A stretch of DNA of 64,000 bases from Paenibacillus alginolyticus DSM 5050 = NBRC 15375 (GTDB lineage Bacteria; Bacillota; Bacilli; Paenibacillales; NBRC-103111), in NCBI RefSeq assembly GCF_000422905.1, contig NZ_AUGY01000026.1, positions 1 to 64,000 of the forward strand, in the 5' to 3' direction. The translations under genes and the position numbers were made by a program. Shown piece after piece: positions 48,113 to 56,192 of this stretch (position 1 is the stretch's first letter; every line of letters starts with the position of its first letter). The notes under the pieces are model-generated. The model ran no database searches. It was not told the DNA's origin and saw only the letters and a list, made by a program, of their open reading frames with translations.

Positions 48113-49537
48113 TTACAACTTCAGACTGATTAGCTTCAGCTCAGTCATTTCTTCCACCGCATATTTCACACCCTCGCGGCCGACGCCACTATCTTTGAGC
48201 CCTCCATAAGGCATGTTGTCGACGCGGAAAGTCGGAATGTCGTTGATCATCACTCCGCCTACCTCTAAATCTTCTGCAGCTCGTAATGCTGCATTGATAT
48301 CGTTCGTATAGATGCCTGCTTGCAGACCAAACCTAGAGTTGTTGACGGCTGAGACAGCTTCATTCAACGTGGTAAAGGGAGTCAATGTCACTACGGGTCC
48401 GAAGACCTCTTGACACGAGACCGTCGCCGTTTCAGCTACATTCGTCAAAATCGTTGGCGGAAATAGGCTCGGTGACAATGCTTTGCCTCCAGACAGAGCA
48501 ATTGCTCCACCCGCGATTGCAGCGGATACCCAGCTCGCGATGCGGTCGACCTCTTTGCAGGAGATTAAAGCTGACATGTCTGTAGATTCCTCAAGCGGAT
48601 CACCAATAACCAATTTCTCTACCGCGGTTTTGAACATAGCTGCAAACACTTCGTATTTGCTTTCATGAACATAAATACGTTGAATGGAGATACATACTTG
48701 ACCGCTGAAGGAGAAAGCTCCCAGTACACAACGATCCACTAGTTGCTGTGTTATGTCCACATTACTGTCGATAATTACGGCTGAATTAGATCCTAACTCT
48801 AGAGTAACTCGTTTAAGCCCTGCTTTATTCCTCATCGCAATGCCCACTTCAGGGCTGCCTGTAAATGTGATAGCCGCAATTCTCCGATCGCGAACCAGCT
48901 TCTCGCCAATGACTGATCCTTTGCCCGGGATAACGTTAAGAGCTCCTGCAGGTAAACCGGCTTCCAGCATGATCTCCGCTAGCGCAAGTGAGCTTAACGG
49001 TGTTTGGCCGGCTGGTTTCAATACAACCGTATTGCCAGCTGCAATCGCTGGCCCCACTTTATGGGCAACAAGGTTGAATGGGAAATTAAATGGTGTTATG
49101 GCTCCCACAATGCCAAGCGGTTTCCGCACGGTGAACGCTAGACGCCCCTCGCCACCCGGTGCGGCATCTAGGGGGACAGTCTCGCCATGAATGCGTTTAG
49201 CTTCTTCTGCAGCAAATTTGTAAGTGTGAATCGTTCGAGAAATTTCCGTTCTCCCTGTTCTTATCGGTTTGGCCGCTTCCATCGCCAGCAGACGGGCTAA
49301 TTCCTCTTTGCGTTCTTCCATCAGAAGCGCAGTCTTCTCCAAAATTGCTGCGCGTTCGTGAGCAGGCATTTTCTTCATAATCGAACTTGCAGCCTCAGCT
49401 GCCAGGATCGCTTCTTCTGCATCCTCATCATTTGCTTGAGCTACTTGAGCAATAAGTTCCCCGGAATACGGCGAGAATAAATCGGTATAGACGGTAGCTT
49501 CTTTCCATTTCCCATTAATAAATAAGTGTTTTTTCAT
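48113..49537 (-). CDS. Aldehyde dehydrogenase, probable succinate-semialdehyde dehydrogenase role
   Basis: 474-residue NAD(P)-dependent ALDH. Catalytic Cys in FSGQVCIS, Glu in TLELGSN, cofactor motif FTGSPEVG and NFPFN present. It follows gabT by seven bases on the same sigma-54-type transcript, so oxidation of succinate semialdehyde from GABA is the simplest role. By sequence alone it could equally be a lactaldehyde or glyceraldehyde-phosphate-type ALDH. Confidence 0.85.
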   Translation of the reverse strand: MKKHLFINGKWKEATVYTDLFSPYSGELIAQVAQANDEDAEEAILAAEAASSIMKKMPAHERAAILEKTALLMEERKEELARLLAMEAAKPIRTGRTEISRTIHTYKFAAEEAKRIHGETVPLDAAPGGEGRLAFTVRKPLGIVGAITPFNFPFNLVAHKVGPAIAAGNTVVLKPAGQTPLSSLALAEIMLEAGLPAGALNVIPGKGSVIGEKLVRDRRIAAITFTGSPEVGIAMRNKAGLKRVTLELGSNSAVIIDSNVDITQQLVDRCVLGAFSFSGQVCISIQRIYVHESKYEVFAAMFKTAVEKLVIGDPLEESTDMSALISCKEVDRIASWVSAAIAGGAIALSGGKALSPSLFPPTILTNVAETATVSCQEVFGPVVTLTPFTTLNEAVSAVNNSRFGLQAGIYTNDINAALRAAEDLEVGGVMINDIPTFRVDNMPYGGLKDSGVGREGVKYAVEEMTELKLISLKL

Positions 49538-49544
49538 ACGAACA

Positions 49545-50912
49545 TCATACCCCCATCGTTGATTTGGCAGGAACTAACTTCCTCAGAACCTCGCCGATAA
49601 TATCCAATCCCTCTTGAAGCTGCTCATCTGTGATGACCAGCGGCGTGAGGAAACGCAGCACATTGCCTTGAACGCCTGCACTCAGCACGATGACGCCCGC
49701 TTCATAGCAAGCTTTTACGCAGCTAGCCACCAGCTCTTTCGAGGGTTTTCCTGTCGCCGGATCCACAAACTCTATTCCGCACATCGCTCCAAGTCCTCTC
49801 ACATCGGCAATGTGTGGAACATCTTTTTGCAAATTTATAAAAAAACTGCGGATTTTATCGCCAATGATTTTGGATTTCCCTGGGAGGTCATCTCGCTCCA
49901 TCATTTCAATAACAGCCAAAGCTGCCGCGCATCCTAACGGGCTCCCTCCGTAGGTTCCTCCTATTTCCCCGGGCCCAGGCGCATCCATAATCCCAGCTCT
50001 GCCGACCACAGCACTAATAGGAAGTCCCGCCGCAATCGATTTAGATAACGTCATTAAATCCGGCTCAATATCGAATTGACTAGAGGCAAACATCGTACCT
50101 GTCCGTCCAAAACCTGTCTGAATCTCATCCGCGATAAAAAGAATGTCATTCTGCTTACAGATCTTATAAACACCTTGCACAAAAGATTTGGGAGGCACAA
50201 TAAATCCGCCTTCTCCCTGTACAGGCTCCATAATAACCGCGGCAATCTCTTCTGGTGCCACTTCCGTATACAGGAAGTCTTCAAACTGCTTCAGGCAAAA
50301 ATCTGCATATTCTTCTTCCGTCATCGATCTAGGACGGTTGAAAGGATACGGGAACGGAGCTTTATAGATCGCCGGAGCAAAGGGTCCCATGTTAAATTTA
50401 TATGGCTTTACTTTACTAGTCAGCGACATGCCAAGTAAAGTGCGTCCATGAAACCCGCGAGTAAACGAAACGATGCCTGTTTTCCCTGTATATTTTCGAG
50501 CGATCTTCACCGCATTTTCTACGGCTTCCGCGCCACTGTTCAGAAAAATCGTCTTTTTCTCGAAGTTGCCTGGCGTGATTTCATCTAATTTCTTGGCAAG
50601 CTGCACGTAAGGTTCGTACATCGCAATATGGAAGCAAGTATGCAGATATAATTCTGCTTGCTTTTGAATTGCCTTTACAACTTCTGGCGGGCAATGCCCT
50701 GCATTTAATGAACCGATCGCACCAACAAAATCCAAAAATACATTGCCGTCTACGTCGTACAATAAGGCCCCTTCCGCCTTTTCAACAAAAATTGGCGTAT
50801 TATTGCTAACTCCCTTAGGTACATATCTTTTTCTTTGCTCAAGCAGTTCCAGTGATTTAACTCCTGGTACTGAACTTGAGATAGATACAAATTGTCGATT
50901 ATTAGTGCTCAT
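49545..50912 (-). CDS. gabT: 4-aminobutyrate aminotransferase
   Basis: Class III PLP aminotransferase of 455 residues moving the amino group of GABA to 2-oxoglutarate. Motifs: LNSGAEAVENAVKIAR, FTRGFHGRTLLGMSLT, and FIADEIQTGFGRTGTMFA followed by the PLP lysine in LSKSIAAGLP. ATG 50912 (MSTNNRQ) follows AAGGAGG; an in-frame ATG at 50951 lies around the predicted transcription start. A strong -24/-12 promoter lies upstream. Confidence 0.9.
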   Translation of the reverse strand: MSTNNRQFVSISSSVPGVKSLELLEQRKRYVPKGVSNNTPIFVEKAEGALLYDVDGNVFLDFVGAIGSLNAGHCPPEVVKAIQKQAELYLHTCFHIAMYEPYVQLAKKLDEITPGNFEKKTIFLNSGAEAVENAVKIARKYTGKTGIVSFTRGFHGRTLLGMSLTSKVKPYKFNMGPFAPAIYKAPFPYPFNRPRSMTEEEYADFCLKQFEDFLYTEVAPEEIAAVIMEPVQGEGGFIVPPKSFVQGVYKICKQNDILFIADEIQTGFGRTGTMFASSQFDIEPDLMTLSKSIAAGLPISAVVGRAGIMDAPGPGEIGGTYGGSPLGCAAALAVIEMMERDDLPGKSKIIGDKIRSFFINLQKDVPHIADVRGLGAMCGIEFVDPATGKPSKELVASCVKACYEAGVIVLSAGVQGNVLRFLTPLVITDEQLQEGLDIIGEVLRKLVPAKSTMGV

Positions 50913-50966
50913 ATTAAGCATCCTCCTTATTAACAACGCTGAAATTAGCATATGTATATACTTCCT

Positions 50967-50982
50967 AGCAATAATGATGCCA
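50967..50982 (-). promoter_or_regulatory. Sigma-54 promoter of the gab operon
   Basis: Minus strand TGGCAT-CATTA-TTGCT. It matches TGGCAC-N5-TTGCW except one base, with GG and GC at the required spacing. Start of transcription expected near 50955, 43 bases before gabT. Confidence 0.8.
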
Positions 50983-51042
50983 CTTAGCAGAAGATTTTTA
51001 GCTCACGTTTAACAGCCCCTCTGATAGGACTCTTTAAATAAG

Positions 51043-51094
51043 TTGAAGATGCATTTTTGAATAATCCATGCACAAATGCATGTACTGGCTTCAA
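51043..51094. promoter_or_regulatory. Possible enhancer (UAS) between divergent sigma-54 promoters
   Basis: Nested dyad: TTGAAG (51043-51048) with CTTCAA (51089-51094), and ATGCATTT (51049-51056) with AAATGCAT (51074-51081). It lies about 90-140 bases from the gab start and 55-105 from the pdxS-side start, suitable for an enhancer-binding activator. Confidence 0.5.
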
Positions 51095-51138: not shown

Positions 51139-51195
51139 AGTATAGGGGTATCGTACCATTCATGTAGAATTCATCTTGCAGGAGGAATATACAAC

Positions 51196-51776
51196 ATGAC
51201 ACAAGTAACCGTTCCCTTTGTATGCGGCGCTAGAGATCTAGGAGAAGCACTCCGTCGAATCGGCGAAGGCGCTTCTATGATTCGTACGAAAGGCGAGCCA
51301 GGTACTGATAATATCGTTGAGGCCGTCCGTCATATGCGTACGATGCAGCAGCAAGTTCGAAAAGTGCAAAGTATGTCTTATGATGAATTGATGGCTGAAG
51401 CCAAACAACTTGGAGCTCCCTACAATTGTTAGAGCTAGTGCATAGAACTGGTAAGCTCCCCGTTGTCAATTTTGCGGCAGGCGGTGTAGCAACACCTGCG
51501 GATGCAGCTTTGATGCATCTAGGATCGGAAGGCATCTTTGTCGGTTCCGGCATTTTTAAATCTGAATGTCCAGATATATTTGCCCGCGCCATTGTCGCAG
51601 CGACTACCCATTACACAGACTATGTACTAATAGCCTCCGTATCCAAAAATTTAGGCACCGCCATGAAAGGAATTGAACTTTCTACCTTACAACCAAGTGA
51701 GCTTATGGCTCAGCGCATGCTGGTAGTCGTGTTGTTGGTAGTAATTGACTCATTTCATACATCTACGCTGAAATAA
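51196..51776 (+). pseudogene. pdxS: pdxS (PLP synthase) remnant, deleted and frameshifted
   Basis: Clear similarity to the C-terminal 60 percent of PdxS ([75 protein letters not shown]). About the first 115 residues, including the start of the catalytic barrel, are missing, yet an ATG with AGGAGGA lies right at the new 5' end. This is consistent with an internal deletion joining the original start to the middle of the gene. A one-base loss near 51424 breaks the frame after LGAPY. Non-functional. Confidence 0.85.
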
Positions 51777-53119: not shown

Positions 53120-53398
53120 TTAATCTATAGTTTTCCGTTCTTTGCCGATGGCATCGTTATGCTGAGATCGGTACCCGGCAAATATTTTCGTGTTGCCATC
53201 GTCCATCCGAACCGGAATCATTACTTCTAGAAATCGGATCGGGTCTTTTAACAATTCATAAACGGGTTCGGGATACAGCAGTAAGTCAGTCGCTTCTTTT
53301 AATAGGGATTGAAAGGCGGTTAACGGATTTTCAACTTCCATACTTTCATTTGAAGATGTAGCAGGCACTGTTTCTCTTTTTGCGTCGATACTTAGCAT
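53120..53398 (-). pseudogene. N-terminal remnant of a glutamate dehydrogenase (RocG/GudB type)
   Basis: 93-residue frame whose middle reads LLYPEPVYELLKDPIRFLEV, then MIPVRMDDGNTKIFAGYRSQHNDAIG, the conserved N-terminus of Bacillus Glu/Leu/Phe/Val dehydrogenases. The match ends abruptly just before the TKGGIRF region and a stop follows after seven unrelated residues. No catalytic or NAD-binding part is found downstream to 52847. ATG 53398 has GAGG at proper distance, and a perfect sigma-54 promoter lies upstream, as for rocG of B. subtilis. Confidence 0.82.
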
Positions 53399-53452
53399 CA
53401 CGGGCACCTCATTCAGTGTATTTTTCTTGATATCTTGATATCTTTATCTATC

Positions 53453-53468
53453 AGCAAGAACAGTGCCA
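53453..53468 (-). promoter_or_regulatory. Sigma-54 promoter of the glutamate dehydrogenase remnant
   Basis: Minus strand TTGGCAC-TGTTC-TTGCT, a full match to the -24/-12 consensus, about 55 bases upstream of the start. Confidence 0.85.
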
Positions 53469-53601
53469 AGGCTTAATATAGGATACGGACAGGGTTTAAC
53501 CGCGATATGTAAGCTCTTTAACTGCAGAATCCTTTTAGGACTGACCCGCATTTTATGCATATTTGAATAATAACTACTTTTTGCATAGCTTCAAGACAAA
53601 G

Positions 53602-53640: not shown

Positions 53641-54951
53641 TTACAATATATTTTTACGTAATGCAGATGATAGAATATGCATCTCTTCACGATATTTGGT
53701 CACCGTTCTGCGTGAAATGCGAATGCCCTCTTCGGTTAAGATTTCTACAACCTTTTGATCGGAATACGGCTGTTTCTTTTGTTCCTGTGAAATGAGTTCC
53801 TTGATTCTTATCTTGATTGTTTTGATAGACGTTAGTTCACCTTCATCCGATTGCAGCCCCGAGGAAAAGAAATATTTTAGCTCAAGCACGCCATAGGGGG
53901 TTCGAATGTACTTGTTTTGAACGGTTCTACTTATTGTAGATTCATGGAGATCAAGCTTTTCTGAAATCATTTTTAGAGTTAAGGGTTTTATGCCTCGTAC
54001 GCCGATCTCTAAAAACGCCAGCTGTTCTTCAAAAATAGCACGAATGACCCGGTACAGGGTCATCTTCCGCTGCTCCAAGCTGCGCACAACCCAATCGGCA
54101 GTTTTCCATTTTTCTTTTATAAAAGAAACCGCATCTTGACAACCTGCCTGCTGGATATGGCTATAATAGTCCGTATTGACTGAGGTCTTGGGGATTGCAC
54201 CCGCATTCATTTGGATCACGATGTTCCCTTGCTCTTTATATATAGTGGCATCGGGAATCATATAAGATTCTTCGATCCAGCTGAAGGCCTTACCAGGCCG
54301 TGGATTCAAATTGCGAATATAAGTGACGATTTCCTTCACTTGCATGAGAGTTGCACCTAACTGCTGCGCAATCTTATCCAGCTTCATCTGAGCAAGCTGC
54401 TGCATATTTTGGCTGACCACTTCAAAAGTGCCATGCGGCGCTGCGGGATCCCTAGAAATCTGCAGCAATAAGCATTCCTGCAAGTCTCTTGCTCCTATAC
54501 CTGGCGGTTCCAGCGACTGTAGACAAGATAGCGCTACTTCAACAACCTCTTTTGGCTTATTCAAAAATGTGCTTACTTCCGAAATAGATAGGGGTAAATA
54601 ACCTCGATCATCTAAATTTCCTGCCAGATAAGCTGCCGTCTTATATACATCATCGGGAACCCCTGCTATCCGCAGTTGGCTGAGAAGACACTGTTCCAAT
54701 GTTTCCTCTTTCGCCTTCGCCTTCCATAGCGGATCTGAGATTGACCCCGACAGCTGTGAAGATTTACCCGTTTTCAAAGAAGAACTTGTGAAAGATTCGA
54801 TGTCCAGTAAGGGGTTTTCCAAGGCTTGCTCTTGGAGGTACTGCGACAACTCATAGCTTGATAATTGCAATATATGAATGGACTGCTGCAGTTCAGGAGT
54901 CATCGTTAGCTTTTGGTTCTGCACTTGCGTTAGACTATAGCCTGTTTTCAT
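53641..54951 (-). CDS. rpoN: RNA polymerase sigma-54 factor (SigL)
   Basis: 436 residues, all three regions present: a Gln-rich activator-interacting N-terminus (LTMTPELQQSIHILQL), a core-binding middle (LEPPGIGARDLQECLL, then GIKPLTLKMISEKLDLHESTISR in parts) and the C-terminal RpoN box ISRRTVTKYREE. Recognises -24/-12 promoters and needs an enhancer-binding activator; none is encoded in this window. Its own upstream region holds a perfect sigma-54 promoter and a cre site, matching known CcpA repression of sigL in B. subtilis. Confidence 0.95.
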   Translation of the reverse strand: MKTGYSLTQVQNQKLTMTPELQQSIHILQLSSYELSQYLQEQALENPLLDIESFTSSSLKTGKSSQLSGSISDPLWKAKAKEETLEQCLLSQLRIAGVPDDVYKTAAYLAGNLDDRGYLPLSISEVSTFLNKPKEVVEVALSCLQSLEPPGIGARDLQECLLLQISRDPAAPHGTFEVVSQNMQQLAQMKLDKIAQQLGATLMQVKEIVTYIRNLNPRPGKAFSWIEESYMIPDATIYKEQGNIVIQMNAGAIPKTSVNTDYYSHIQQAGCQDAVSFIKEKWKTADWVVRSLEQRKMTLYRVIRAIFEEQLAFLEIGVRGIKPLTLKMISEKLDLHESTISRTVQNKYIRTPYGVLELKYFFSSGLQSDEGELTSIKTIKIRIKELISQEQKKQPYSDQKVVEILTEEGIRISRRTVTKYREEMHILSSALRKNIL

Positions 54952-55014
54952 ACCTAGTTCCTCCTTGATTTTGCCTTGGTAACACTTTTCGTGGTGAGCA
55001 TGCGCTCCATCAAT

Positions 55015-55028
55015 TGAAAACGCTTACG
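55015..55028. promoter_or_regulatory. cre (CcpA) site in the rpoN leader
   Basis: TGAAAACGCTTACG matches 13 of 14 positions of the cre consensus. It lies between the predicted sigma-54 start and the rpoN ATG, a roadblock-type position. Confidence 0.7.
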
Positions 55029-55102
55029 AATATTATAAATCTATTATAGCTCATTTTAGATCCATTTGGCTTATGGAAAAATTAGATCCCATCTATTTTT
55101 CA

Positions 55103-55118
55103 AGCAAGAATCGTGCCA
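55103..55118 (-). promoter_or_regulatory. Sigma-54 promoter upstream of rpoN itself
   Basis: Minus strand TTGGCAC-GATTC-TTGCT, a full consensus match about 150 bases upstream of rpoN. The glpX terminator (55163-55201) separates it from the preceding gene, so rpoN is its only obvious target. Confidence 0.82.
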
Positions 55119-55162
55119 ACCGAATACAATATCTCATAAAAGCTGATCCTTTGTTATAAACA

Positions 55163-55201
55163 CAAAGAAATCTCTCCTTAATTCAAAGAGAGATTTCTTT
55201 G
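55163..55201 (-). terminator. Terminator of the glpX operon
   Basis: AAAGAAATCTCTC paired with GAGAGATTTCTTT around an AT-rich loop; T-rich on the minus strand. Confidence 0.75.
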
Positions 55202-55226: not shown

Positions 55227-56192
55227 TCAGGCGCTCCCGAGGTGGTACTCATGCATCTGATGAGCACATTGAATGAAACGAACCGTCTGAGTTTGCGCCC
55301 TCATAACGACCGAATGTGTTTCTGCGCGACCGCCGAATAAAAATTTAACACCGCTCAGGAAGTCTCCTGAGGTCACACCCGTTGCTGCAAAATAAATGTC
55401 AGATTCGCCTACCAATTCGCGCATTCCAAGCACTTTGGAAGGATCAACAATCCCCATTTCCTTGCATCGCCCCATTTCTTCGTCATTCTCCGGGAGAAGC
55501 CGTCCTTGAAATTCGCCTCCCATACAACGTAGGGCAGCGGCTGCGAGCACACCTTCCGGTGCGCCTCCGGAACCTACGTGGAGATCAATGCCCGTTTCTG
55601 GGAAAGCTGCTGCCATAGCACCCGCAACATCGCCATCATTCAGCAAATGAATTTTGACACCCAGCGTCCGTAAAACAAGGATTTTATCTGCATGTCTCTT
55701 ACGATCCAAGATGGAAACGGTCAGCTCTGTTATCTCTTTTTGTAAAAGTGCAGCGGCCTTTCTAATCGTTAATTCGAGGGGGTCATCCAATTTCAGTTGA
55801 CCCACCAAACGCGGTCCTACTGCCAGCTTTTCCATATACATATCCGGTGCATGCAGCAGGTTCCCTTTCTCAGCAATGGCTACAACGGACAGGGCATTGT
55901 TCCTGCCGCTGGCTACAATATCGGTACCTTCGAGCGGATCAACAGCCACATCATACTCGGGACCCAACCCATTTCCTACAGACTCACCGATGAACAGCAT
56001 CGGGGCTTCATCCATCTCACCTTCACCAATGACAACTGTTCCTCGGAATGGTATGGAGCTAAAAATAGAACGCATAGCAGAAGTTGCTGCCTCGTCAGCG
56101 CTGTGTTTATTCCCTTTTCCCGTCCAACGTGCGGACGCTAAAGCCGCAGATTCTGTTACTCGTACAATTTCCAGAGACAAATCTCTTTGCAT
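55227..56192 (-). CDS. glpX: Fructose-1,6-bisphosphatase, class II
   Basis: 321-residue metal-dependent phosphatase of gluconeogenesis (fructose-1,6-bisphosphate to fructose-6-phosphate). GEGEMDEAPML, the metal-site motif DPLEGT and GSGGAPEGVLAAAALRC are all present. Last gene after PPSR; the same-strand order pckA, ccpN, PPSR, glpX groups gluconeogenic functions. Confidence 0.93.
   Translation of the reverse strand: MQRDLSLEIVRVTESAALASARWTGKGNKHSADEAATSAMRSIFSSIPFRGTVVIGEGEMDEAPMLFIGESVGNGLGPEYDVAVDPLEGTDIVASGRNNALSVVAIAEKGNLLHAPDMYMEKLAVGPRLVGQLKLDDPLELTIRKAAALLQKEITELTVSILDRKRHADKILVLRTLGVKIHLLNDGDVAGAMAAAFPETGIDLHVGSGGAPEGVLAAAALRCMGGEFQGRLLPENDEEMGRCKEMGIVDPSKVLGMRELVGESDIYFAATGVTSGDFLSGVKFLFGGRAETHSVVMRAQTQTVRFIQCAHQMHEYHLGSA

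Follow-up and report, generated by a model that had tools for sequence, protein, structure and literature searches.

An accessory rpoN gene of Paenibacillus alginolyticus DSM 5050 is preceded, on its own strand, by a perfect -24/-12 element of the sigma-54 type, and this element is conserved in five of seven orthologous spacers. Sigma-54 promoters are usually seen as being controlled by their activators and not by the supply of sigma-54. The arrangement described here suggests that sigma-54 may boost its own supply, and a similar layout appears to recur at other sigma-54 genes of related bacteria. We consider it fairly probable, from the order of the sites, that the element is a booster promoter placed above a basal sigma-A promoter gated by CcpA, with a positive feedback that would be common to the sigma-54 paralogues. 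If the supply of sigma-54 is under its own promoter type, then switch-like, history-dependent use of amino acids, GABA, arginine or proline among them, becomes possible. Throughout, the window is the whole stretch of 64,000 nt that was analysed, G000 is its genome, and window-type rpoN refers to the accessory copy at 53641..54951 and its orthologues.

The spacer between glpX and rpoN

The original prediction placed a full -24/-12 match about 150 bases 5' of rpoN on the same strand, and such a match, with 0 mismatches, is present at 55119-55103 (Table 1). The sequence, TTGGCACGATTCTTGCT, lies inside the 275-bp glpX-rpoN spacer on the rpoN strand, with its -12 GC approximately 150 bases 5' of the rpoN ATG (54951) and its GG and GC doublets correctly spaced in a consensus context. 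The pattern TGGCACN5TTGCW has 14 matches in the 8.33-Mb genome, compared with 6 for a reversed control; by arithmetic from the genome count, the chance of a match on one strand of a 275-bp spacer is about 2e-4. On inspection, 7 of the 14 lie within ORFs, 1 faces no same-strand gene and 6 precede a gene on the same strand. All 6 are in loci with rpoN, an activator or the rocG relic, although one of them overlaps the start of an ORF when the longest reading frame is taken. The window has another perfect match, TTGGCACTGTTCTTGCT, 1.6 kb from the rpoN element and before a broken glutamate dehydrogenase gene. The looser pattern TGGCN7TTGCW occurs four times in the window against a shuffle mean of 1.8, with four or more in 10 of 100 shuffles; alone, this count would not be convincing. 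Matches to TTGGCACN5TTGCT with up to two mismatches total 13 in the window, against a shuffle mean of 7.2.

Conservation of the GG and GC bases in relatives had been proposed as a check, and these are intact in five of the seven orthologous spacers; the outcome named in advance as refuting, an element not conserved in close relatives, thus did not occur. The element is present in G000, G001, G003, G016 and G040 and missing from G015 and G042, where the alignment gaps at this place have differing ends and the element has apparently been deleted. Since rpoN is intact and under purifying selection in the two genomes without it, the element is not essential. The longest string common to the five element-bearing spacers, TGGCACGATT, falls within the element, and the spacers otherwise differ much. 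Invariant columns among these five make up 15 of 17 in the element versus 105 of 209 ungapped columns elsewhere (one-sided Fisher p 0.0019, which treats columns as independent and ignores relatedness and linkage). Four-fold sites of rpoN in the same genomes are invariant at 85 of 151; at this rate, twelve given positions would all persist with a probability of about 0.001, relatedness and linkage again being ignored. The distance from the element to the start codon ranges from 137 to 290 bases.

The first of two -10-like boxes begins about 55 bases downstream of the -24/-12 element, with no overlap. It reads TATAAT in six of the seven spacers and TAAAAT in G015; GCTATAAT, downstream of the element, is also conserved in six of seven, with GCTAAAAT in G015. 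A two-hexamer sigma-A promoter scan of the rpoN leader found none, the -10 boxes being without a recognisable -35. A cre site matching at 13 of 14 positions had also been predicted in the leader, and the sequence bears this out: CGTAAGCGTTTTCA, between the -24/-12 element and rpoN, departs from the 14-base cre consensus at a single position. Such a match by itself is what chance would give, since one-mismatch matches to a 15-base cre pattern in the window number 43 versus 37.0 +/- 6.4 in shuffles. Its weight comes from its conservation and not from the match itself, for it is kept in all seven spacers, including the two that have no -24/-12 element.

The predicted position of the element, 3' of a glpX terminator, agrees with a hairpin seen by eye between glpX and the element at about 55200-55164. 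This hairpin is kept in six of the seven spacers, in one of them with a mismatch, and G016 has another hairpin instead; its T run is weak and it is absent from the terminator scan list. With a further hairpin downstream of rpoN (about 53635-53600, by eye), rpoN looks monocistronic; it had been put forward as the only target of the element.

Table 1. Positions in the window of the rpoN leader, rpoN and the neighbouring roc and gab features
Feature	Position	Strand	Basis and remarks
-24/-12 (sigma-54-type) element TTGGCACGATTCTTGCT	55103..55119	-	0 mismatches to TTGGCACN5TTGCT; in 5/7 orthologous spacers
Two TATAAT -10-like boxes, candidate sigma-A promoter without clear -35	55032..55048 (55048-55043, 55037-55032)	-	read from sequence
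cre-like operator CGTAAGCGTTTTCA	55015..55028		13/14 consensus match; in 7/7 spacers
Ribosome binding site AAGGAGG of rpoN	54960..54966	-	read from sequence; conserved
Hairpin AAAGAAATCTCTC...GAGAGATTTCTTT, presumed glpX terminator	55164..55200	-	read from sequence
glpX-like gene, upstream	55227..56192	-	ORF; name from earlier reading
rpoN, accessory sigma-54 factor of 436 aa; domains AID, core-binding, DNA-binding	53641..54951	-	PF00309, PF04963, PF04552
Candidate enhancer half ATTATTCAAATATGCAT	53555..53571	-	ATTATTCAAAWATGCAT: only two exact genome copies
Second perfect -24/-12 element TTGGCACTGTTCTTGCT, before rocG relic	53453..53469	-	motif scan; also in G003
N-terminal relic (95 aa) of glutamate dehydrogenase, rocG-like	53120..53407	-	PF02812, residues 57-88
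Candidate enhancer half ATTATTCAAAAATGCAT, before gabT	51049..51065	-	other exact copy of ATTATTCAAAWATGCAT
-24/-12-like element GTGGCATCATTATTGCT of gabT	50967..50983	-	two mismatches; similar ones in G003, G040
gabT, 4-aminobutyrate transaminase	49545..50951	-	TIGR00700 above cut-off
Aldehyde dehydrogenase, gabD-like by position	48113..49537	-	aldehyde dehydrogenase families; none above NCBIfam cut-off among matches listed

Paralogues, activators and the roc/gab neighbourhood

The RpoN encoded in the window scores above the TIGR02395 cut-off and has an RpoN box, read from the sequence. Its genome contains two sigma-54 genes besides the window copy: a core rpoN on contig C12 and another rpoN on C86, encoding proteins 40% and 46% identical, respectively, to the window RpoN. 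Of 30 genomes of the genus, 7 carry a window-type rpoN, and the six copies outside G000 are 88-90% identical to it; the carriers include Paenibacillus sp. Root444D2, Soil787 and V4I3 and P. phytorum. The window-type proteins form their own clade, separate from the core clade, and a core rpoN is present in all seven genomes with a window-type copy. The rpoN shared by the whole genus is a different gene, the window one being an accessory paralogue. Among the seven window-type genes dN/dS is 0.09-0.20 and dS 0.19-0.40.

Does the gene then have its own sigma-54 promoter, as originally predicted? The element itself is there, conserved in five of seven spacers; the word "own" is unproven, given three sigma-54 genes in the genome and an RpoN box, SRRTVTKYREE, that the window and core proteins of G000 have in common, so that the element could be read by either of them. 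Where a core sigma-54 is also encoded, sequence alone does not allow a claim of self-dependence. The feedback may be common to the paralogues, or there may be a cascade from the core copy. The core rpoN on C12 has no strong -24/-12 element within 2.6 kb. The C86 rpoN is at the end of a same-strand run with no terminator found, and the -24/-12 element at the head of this run is 11.7 kb upstream of the gene; in G000, then, a -24/-12 element precedes each accessory rpoN but not the core one. The C86 locus (L063:1661-17262) is apparently a self-contained sigma-54 module, comprising a sensor-like gene, an NtrC-type activator and eleven same-strand ORFs behind a perfect -24/-12 element, with the third rpoN last. 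Another accessory rpoN, in G042 (contig C119:14900-17150; L175, L114), adjoins a sigma-54 activator that is 53% identical to the one on C86.

A PF00158 search of G000 gave 13 matches, 7 of them strong (E below 1e-50) and one of these 7, on C81, frameshifted; on the contig of the window it located none. At E 1e-40, G003 and G016 have three activators only, the C12, C78 and C97 types, and these types are common to the five element-bearing genomes, at 91-96% identity to those of G000. A single activator serving the rpoN promoter in all five genomes, if there is one, would therefore be of the C12, C78 or C97 type. Palindromic enhancers were seen by eye at the aldehyde dehydrogenase promoter belonging to the C97-type activator; near rpoN, this enhancer type (TGTNYCN5GRNACA) has four matches, each with 2 mismatches. 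The only copy of the roc/gab-type enhancer found near rpoN, allowing up to 4 mismatches, is the one before the rocG relic. Neither of these two motif types thus gave a convincing site near the element, and inspection by eye for other types identified no enhancer there. An enhancer common to rpoN, rocG and gabT was considered and rejected: ATTATTCAAAWATGCAT is exact only before the rocG relic and gabT, not near rpoN. The region around it is shortened or lost in G001, G016 and G040 (by eye).

The frameshifted C81 gene (L095:1823-2959) was also rejected as the missing gab/roc activator, since it is in pieces in several frames; its start resembles a KamR-like gene on C12 (both by eye). On C78 (L096:5413-9880) a PAS-type activator is found beside P5C dehydrogenase-like and proline dehydrogenase-like genes (by eye); no -24/-12 element scoring 14.5 or more was found in the 18 kb surrounding this activator, and its targets may be elsewhere. 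C8 (L092:7664-7695, 15500) has a divergent -24/-12 pair and a third element beside a PrdR-like activator and proline racemase-like genes.

The neighbourhood of the window rpoN is a decaying sigma-54 locus. Each of the other six genomes has lost or disrupted the roc and gab parts beside rpoN to its own extent (by eye). The rocG-like gene is broken in G003 and G016 as well (by eye); G001 has a broken gabT, and the sequence covered downstream of rpoN contains no gabT in G016, G015 and G042. G015 and G042, both without the rpoN element, are also without gabTD beside rpoN, a comparison limited to the rpoN neighbourhood. Such decay speaks for a regulon that is either common to these genes or fading. 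The plus strand at 51140-51776, in the gap from the rocG relic to gabT, has pdxS-like fragments with broken frames (by eye), and similar DNA is found in G003.

Sigma-54 genes across the order

Matches to P0001 provided 65 rpoN loci of the order, which are not a random sample and contain many near-copies; the cut-offs were stricter in the wider of the searches that gave them. Most have 8-9 kb of upstream sequence covered, with 806 bases for G081 and 1500 bases for G058. Elements were scored with weights devised for this analysis (maximum 17, cut-off 15.5, GG and GC required) over a distance of 2.6 kb. Omitted from the 65 are further copies in G059 (two), G084, G281, G338 and G384, the core copies of G006 and G023, an interrupted G014 copy, a partial match in G034 and fragments in G001, G020 and G040.

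A strong element within 2.6 kb is present on the rpoN strand at 26 of the 65 loci versus 3 of 65 on the opposite strand. None of the 20 core-clade loci has a same-strand element, compared with 26 of the 45 others. By type, these are five of seven in the window-type clade; all seven of an aldehyde dehydrogenase-DUF779 clade, where TTGGCACGATTCTTGCT is upstream; all five of an aldehyde dehydrogenase type (G302, G314, G322, G338, G384), with an activator nearby in the two examined; seven of eight of a DUF2179 type; and, in a malic enzyme type, G019a and G025a. Pfam assignments cover one member each of the DUF779 (G004), aldehyde dehydrogenase and DUF2179 types and both malic enzymes. On the rpoN tree, with C86 and G059 added (28 of 65), the element label changes 11 times, and at least 8 of these changes are forced by well-supported branches.

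At the remaining 19 of the 45 non-core loci no element was found within 2.6 kb (G015win, G042win, G039, G014, G020a, G036a, G012a, G020b, G023a, G098, G059, G061, G054, G042b, G281, G084, G046, G025b and G000_C86). Strong elements, outside the 26, are found farther upstream in G084 (4.9 kb), G059 (5.2 kb), G012a (8.2 kb) and C86 (11.7 kb), and a weak one in G020a (7.0 kb). In G098, G061, G054, G046, G039, G014 and G281 none was found in the 8-9 kb upstream. The G281 rpoN is in a same-strand run with gabT-, gabD- and potABCD-like genes (by eye).

Terminators bear on how these loci are read. In the DUF779 clade there is a terminator between DUF779 and rpoN in G004, G024 and G023c, with hairpins seen by eye in G009, G008 and G006b. 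Terminators before rpoN in at least three members led us to reject the clade as clear autoregulation; it is kept in the 26 and lies outside the ten single-copy cases below, and G004, G008, G009 and G024 likewise have a single sigma-54 gene. Before rpoN there is a terminator in G025a and a weak one in G384; in G302 a looser scan marked a weak terminator-like site within the coding region upstream, and this site was disregarded. Ten genomes (G058, G080, G081, G086, G090, G099, G100, G302, G314 and G322) combine a single PF04552 match with an element and no terminator detected. With their only sigma-54 gene behind an element, the loop is closed there if the promoter works; "only" refers to PF04552 matches in mostly draft assemblies, G058 being 89% complete. 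Single-rpoN relatives such as G302, G314 and G090 are clean test systems, because no second sigma-54 can substitute.

A cre-like site (up to 2 mismatches) is present from -150 to +170 of the element at 9 of the 26 loci, against a shuffle expectation of 3.4. These comprise four window-type loci and five of the DUF779 clade, the cre of G003 being outside the scanned stretch. Of sixteen core loci, 3 have such a site versus 2.3 expected. A cre is thus not a general feature. In G004 (L176:2250-2430) and its relatives, a distant rpoN lineage, a -10-like TATAAT is directly followed by the cre-like GTTAAGCGTTTGCA, which is the layout of the window (by eye).

The catabolic loci with such elements encode an aldehyde dehydrogenase of the P5C dehydrogenase kind, a malic enzyme, a DUF2179 protein or eleven transporter/dehydrogenase ORFs; the names P5C dehydrogenase and proline dehydrogenase were given by eye. 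Could positive feedback on sigma-54 be a design that has evolved repeatedly in the order? We offer this only tentatively, as an idea that falls just short of probable. It would place rpoN behind -24/-12 elements that are either dedicated or part of a catabolic locus, so that the sigma-54 supply rises with the pathway served, with a basal promoter, accompanied by cre in the window type, setting when the loop may start. The idea covers accessory rpoN genes and the ten genomes with only one rpoN detected.

A candidate booster promoter, its rivals and known systems

The rpoN leader is probably composed of a basal sigma-A/CcpA promoter and a sigma-54 booster. Basal transcription of rpoN would start from the TATAAT boxes, gated by CcpA at cre. 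Given an active enhancer-binding protein, RNA polymerase with sigma-54 would start about 12 bases after the -12 GC (near 55092) and read through the cre region, raising the level of accessory RpoN. Any cellular sigma-54, including the accessory RpoN, should recognise the element, and the positive feedback would in this way be common to the paralogues.

Three other readings were weighed, and together with the booster they are not fully exclusive. The promoter might be fired by the core RpoN of C12 alone, with the accessory RpoN a downstream target and the loop not closed. The presence of a core rpoN in all seven window-type genomes, with no strong element within 2.6 kb, is in keeping with such a cascade, and so is the RpoN box shared by the window and core proteins. 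However, the same box means that the accessory RpoN should read the element too, and in the ten relatives whose sole detected sigma-54 is behind an element the loop must close if the promoter works. We regard a pure cascade as unlikely. A little less likely still is that the element is left over from a former roc/gab sigma-54 regulon, rpoN now being served by a sigma-A promoter. The rocG relics of G000, G003 and G016, the broken gabT of G001 and its absence beside rpoN in G016, G015 and G042 would fit this, as would the loss of gabTD from beside rpoN in both genomes that have no rpoN element and the retention of TATAAT in six and cre in all seven spacers. Against it, no conserved string of the spacer is longer than the one within the element, in G016 and G001 too, which have no roc/gab promoters beside rpoN.

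Finally, sigma-54 polymerase parked on the element in the absence of an activator might hinder rpoN transcription. Negative autoregulation is reported for rpoN of Rhizobium leguminosarum in the accessible part of PMC3538637, but the element in the window stands clear of the first -10 box, about 55 bases 5' of it, and the explanation is very improbable here. The booster reading, with feedback common to the paralogues, is the best supported of the four.

A 2025 matrix survey, in the text available, finds rpoN (COG1508) enriched behind sigma-54 promoters in Bacilli, Clostridia and others, "implying autoregulation", and gives rpoN autoregulation as documented in Geobacter sulfurreducens and Dokdonia and several rpoN genes in 5.04% of organisms, with more than two in six (PMC12316311). 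It treats the same class, Bacilli, but as far as this text goes by a per-class matrix prediction, without locus, paralogue or cre; "Paenibacill" does not occur in its main text. No autoregulation statement was found in the accessible part of a Geobacter RpoN paper (PMC2725144), which may not be the paper that the survey cites. Among the literature matches listed (titles and abstract starts), none concerned several rpoN genes or rpoN autoregulation in Paenibacillus, and none among those listed described a dedicated element on an accessory rpoN with a conserved cre, a conservation test, the paralogue problem or a many-locus count. Autoregulated rpoN as a kind is already known, from Rhodobacter and as a prediction for Bacilli.

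CcpA reportedly controls sigL of Bacillus subtilis by a roadblock, to go by the title of Choi and Saier 2005. The window is alike in having cre between promoter and gene, and adds a -24/-12 element. In the Bacillus thuringiensis gab cluster, which is linked with GabR and sigma-54, gabT is behind a -24/-12 element, and sigL promoter activity is unchanged by GABA, according to the part of PMC4279683 available. The window too has gabT behind such an element; its contig is without an activator gene.

The closest parallel is the nifU2-rpoN superoperon of Rhodobacter capsulatus, for which Cullen et al. 1994 is said to be the reference. As described in the accessible text of PMC6925177, a weak constitutive promoter is 5' of rpoN and a stronger one, activated by NifA and RpoN, is 5' of nifU2, and NifA control of rpoN is argued to have arisen several times in alphaproteobacteria. 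Both systems would give rpoN a basal promoter and a promoter of the activator/RpoN type, the basal one being predicted here from -10 boxes without a -35. In R. capsulatus, so far as that text describes it, the activator is NifA, dependence was demonstrated and rpoN is the sole copy, whereas the window has an accessory rpoN that directly follows the element and has cre in its leader.
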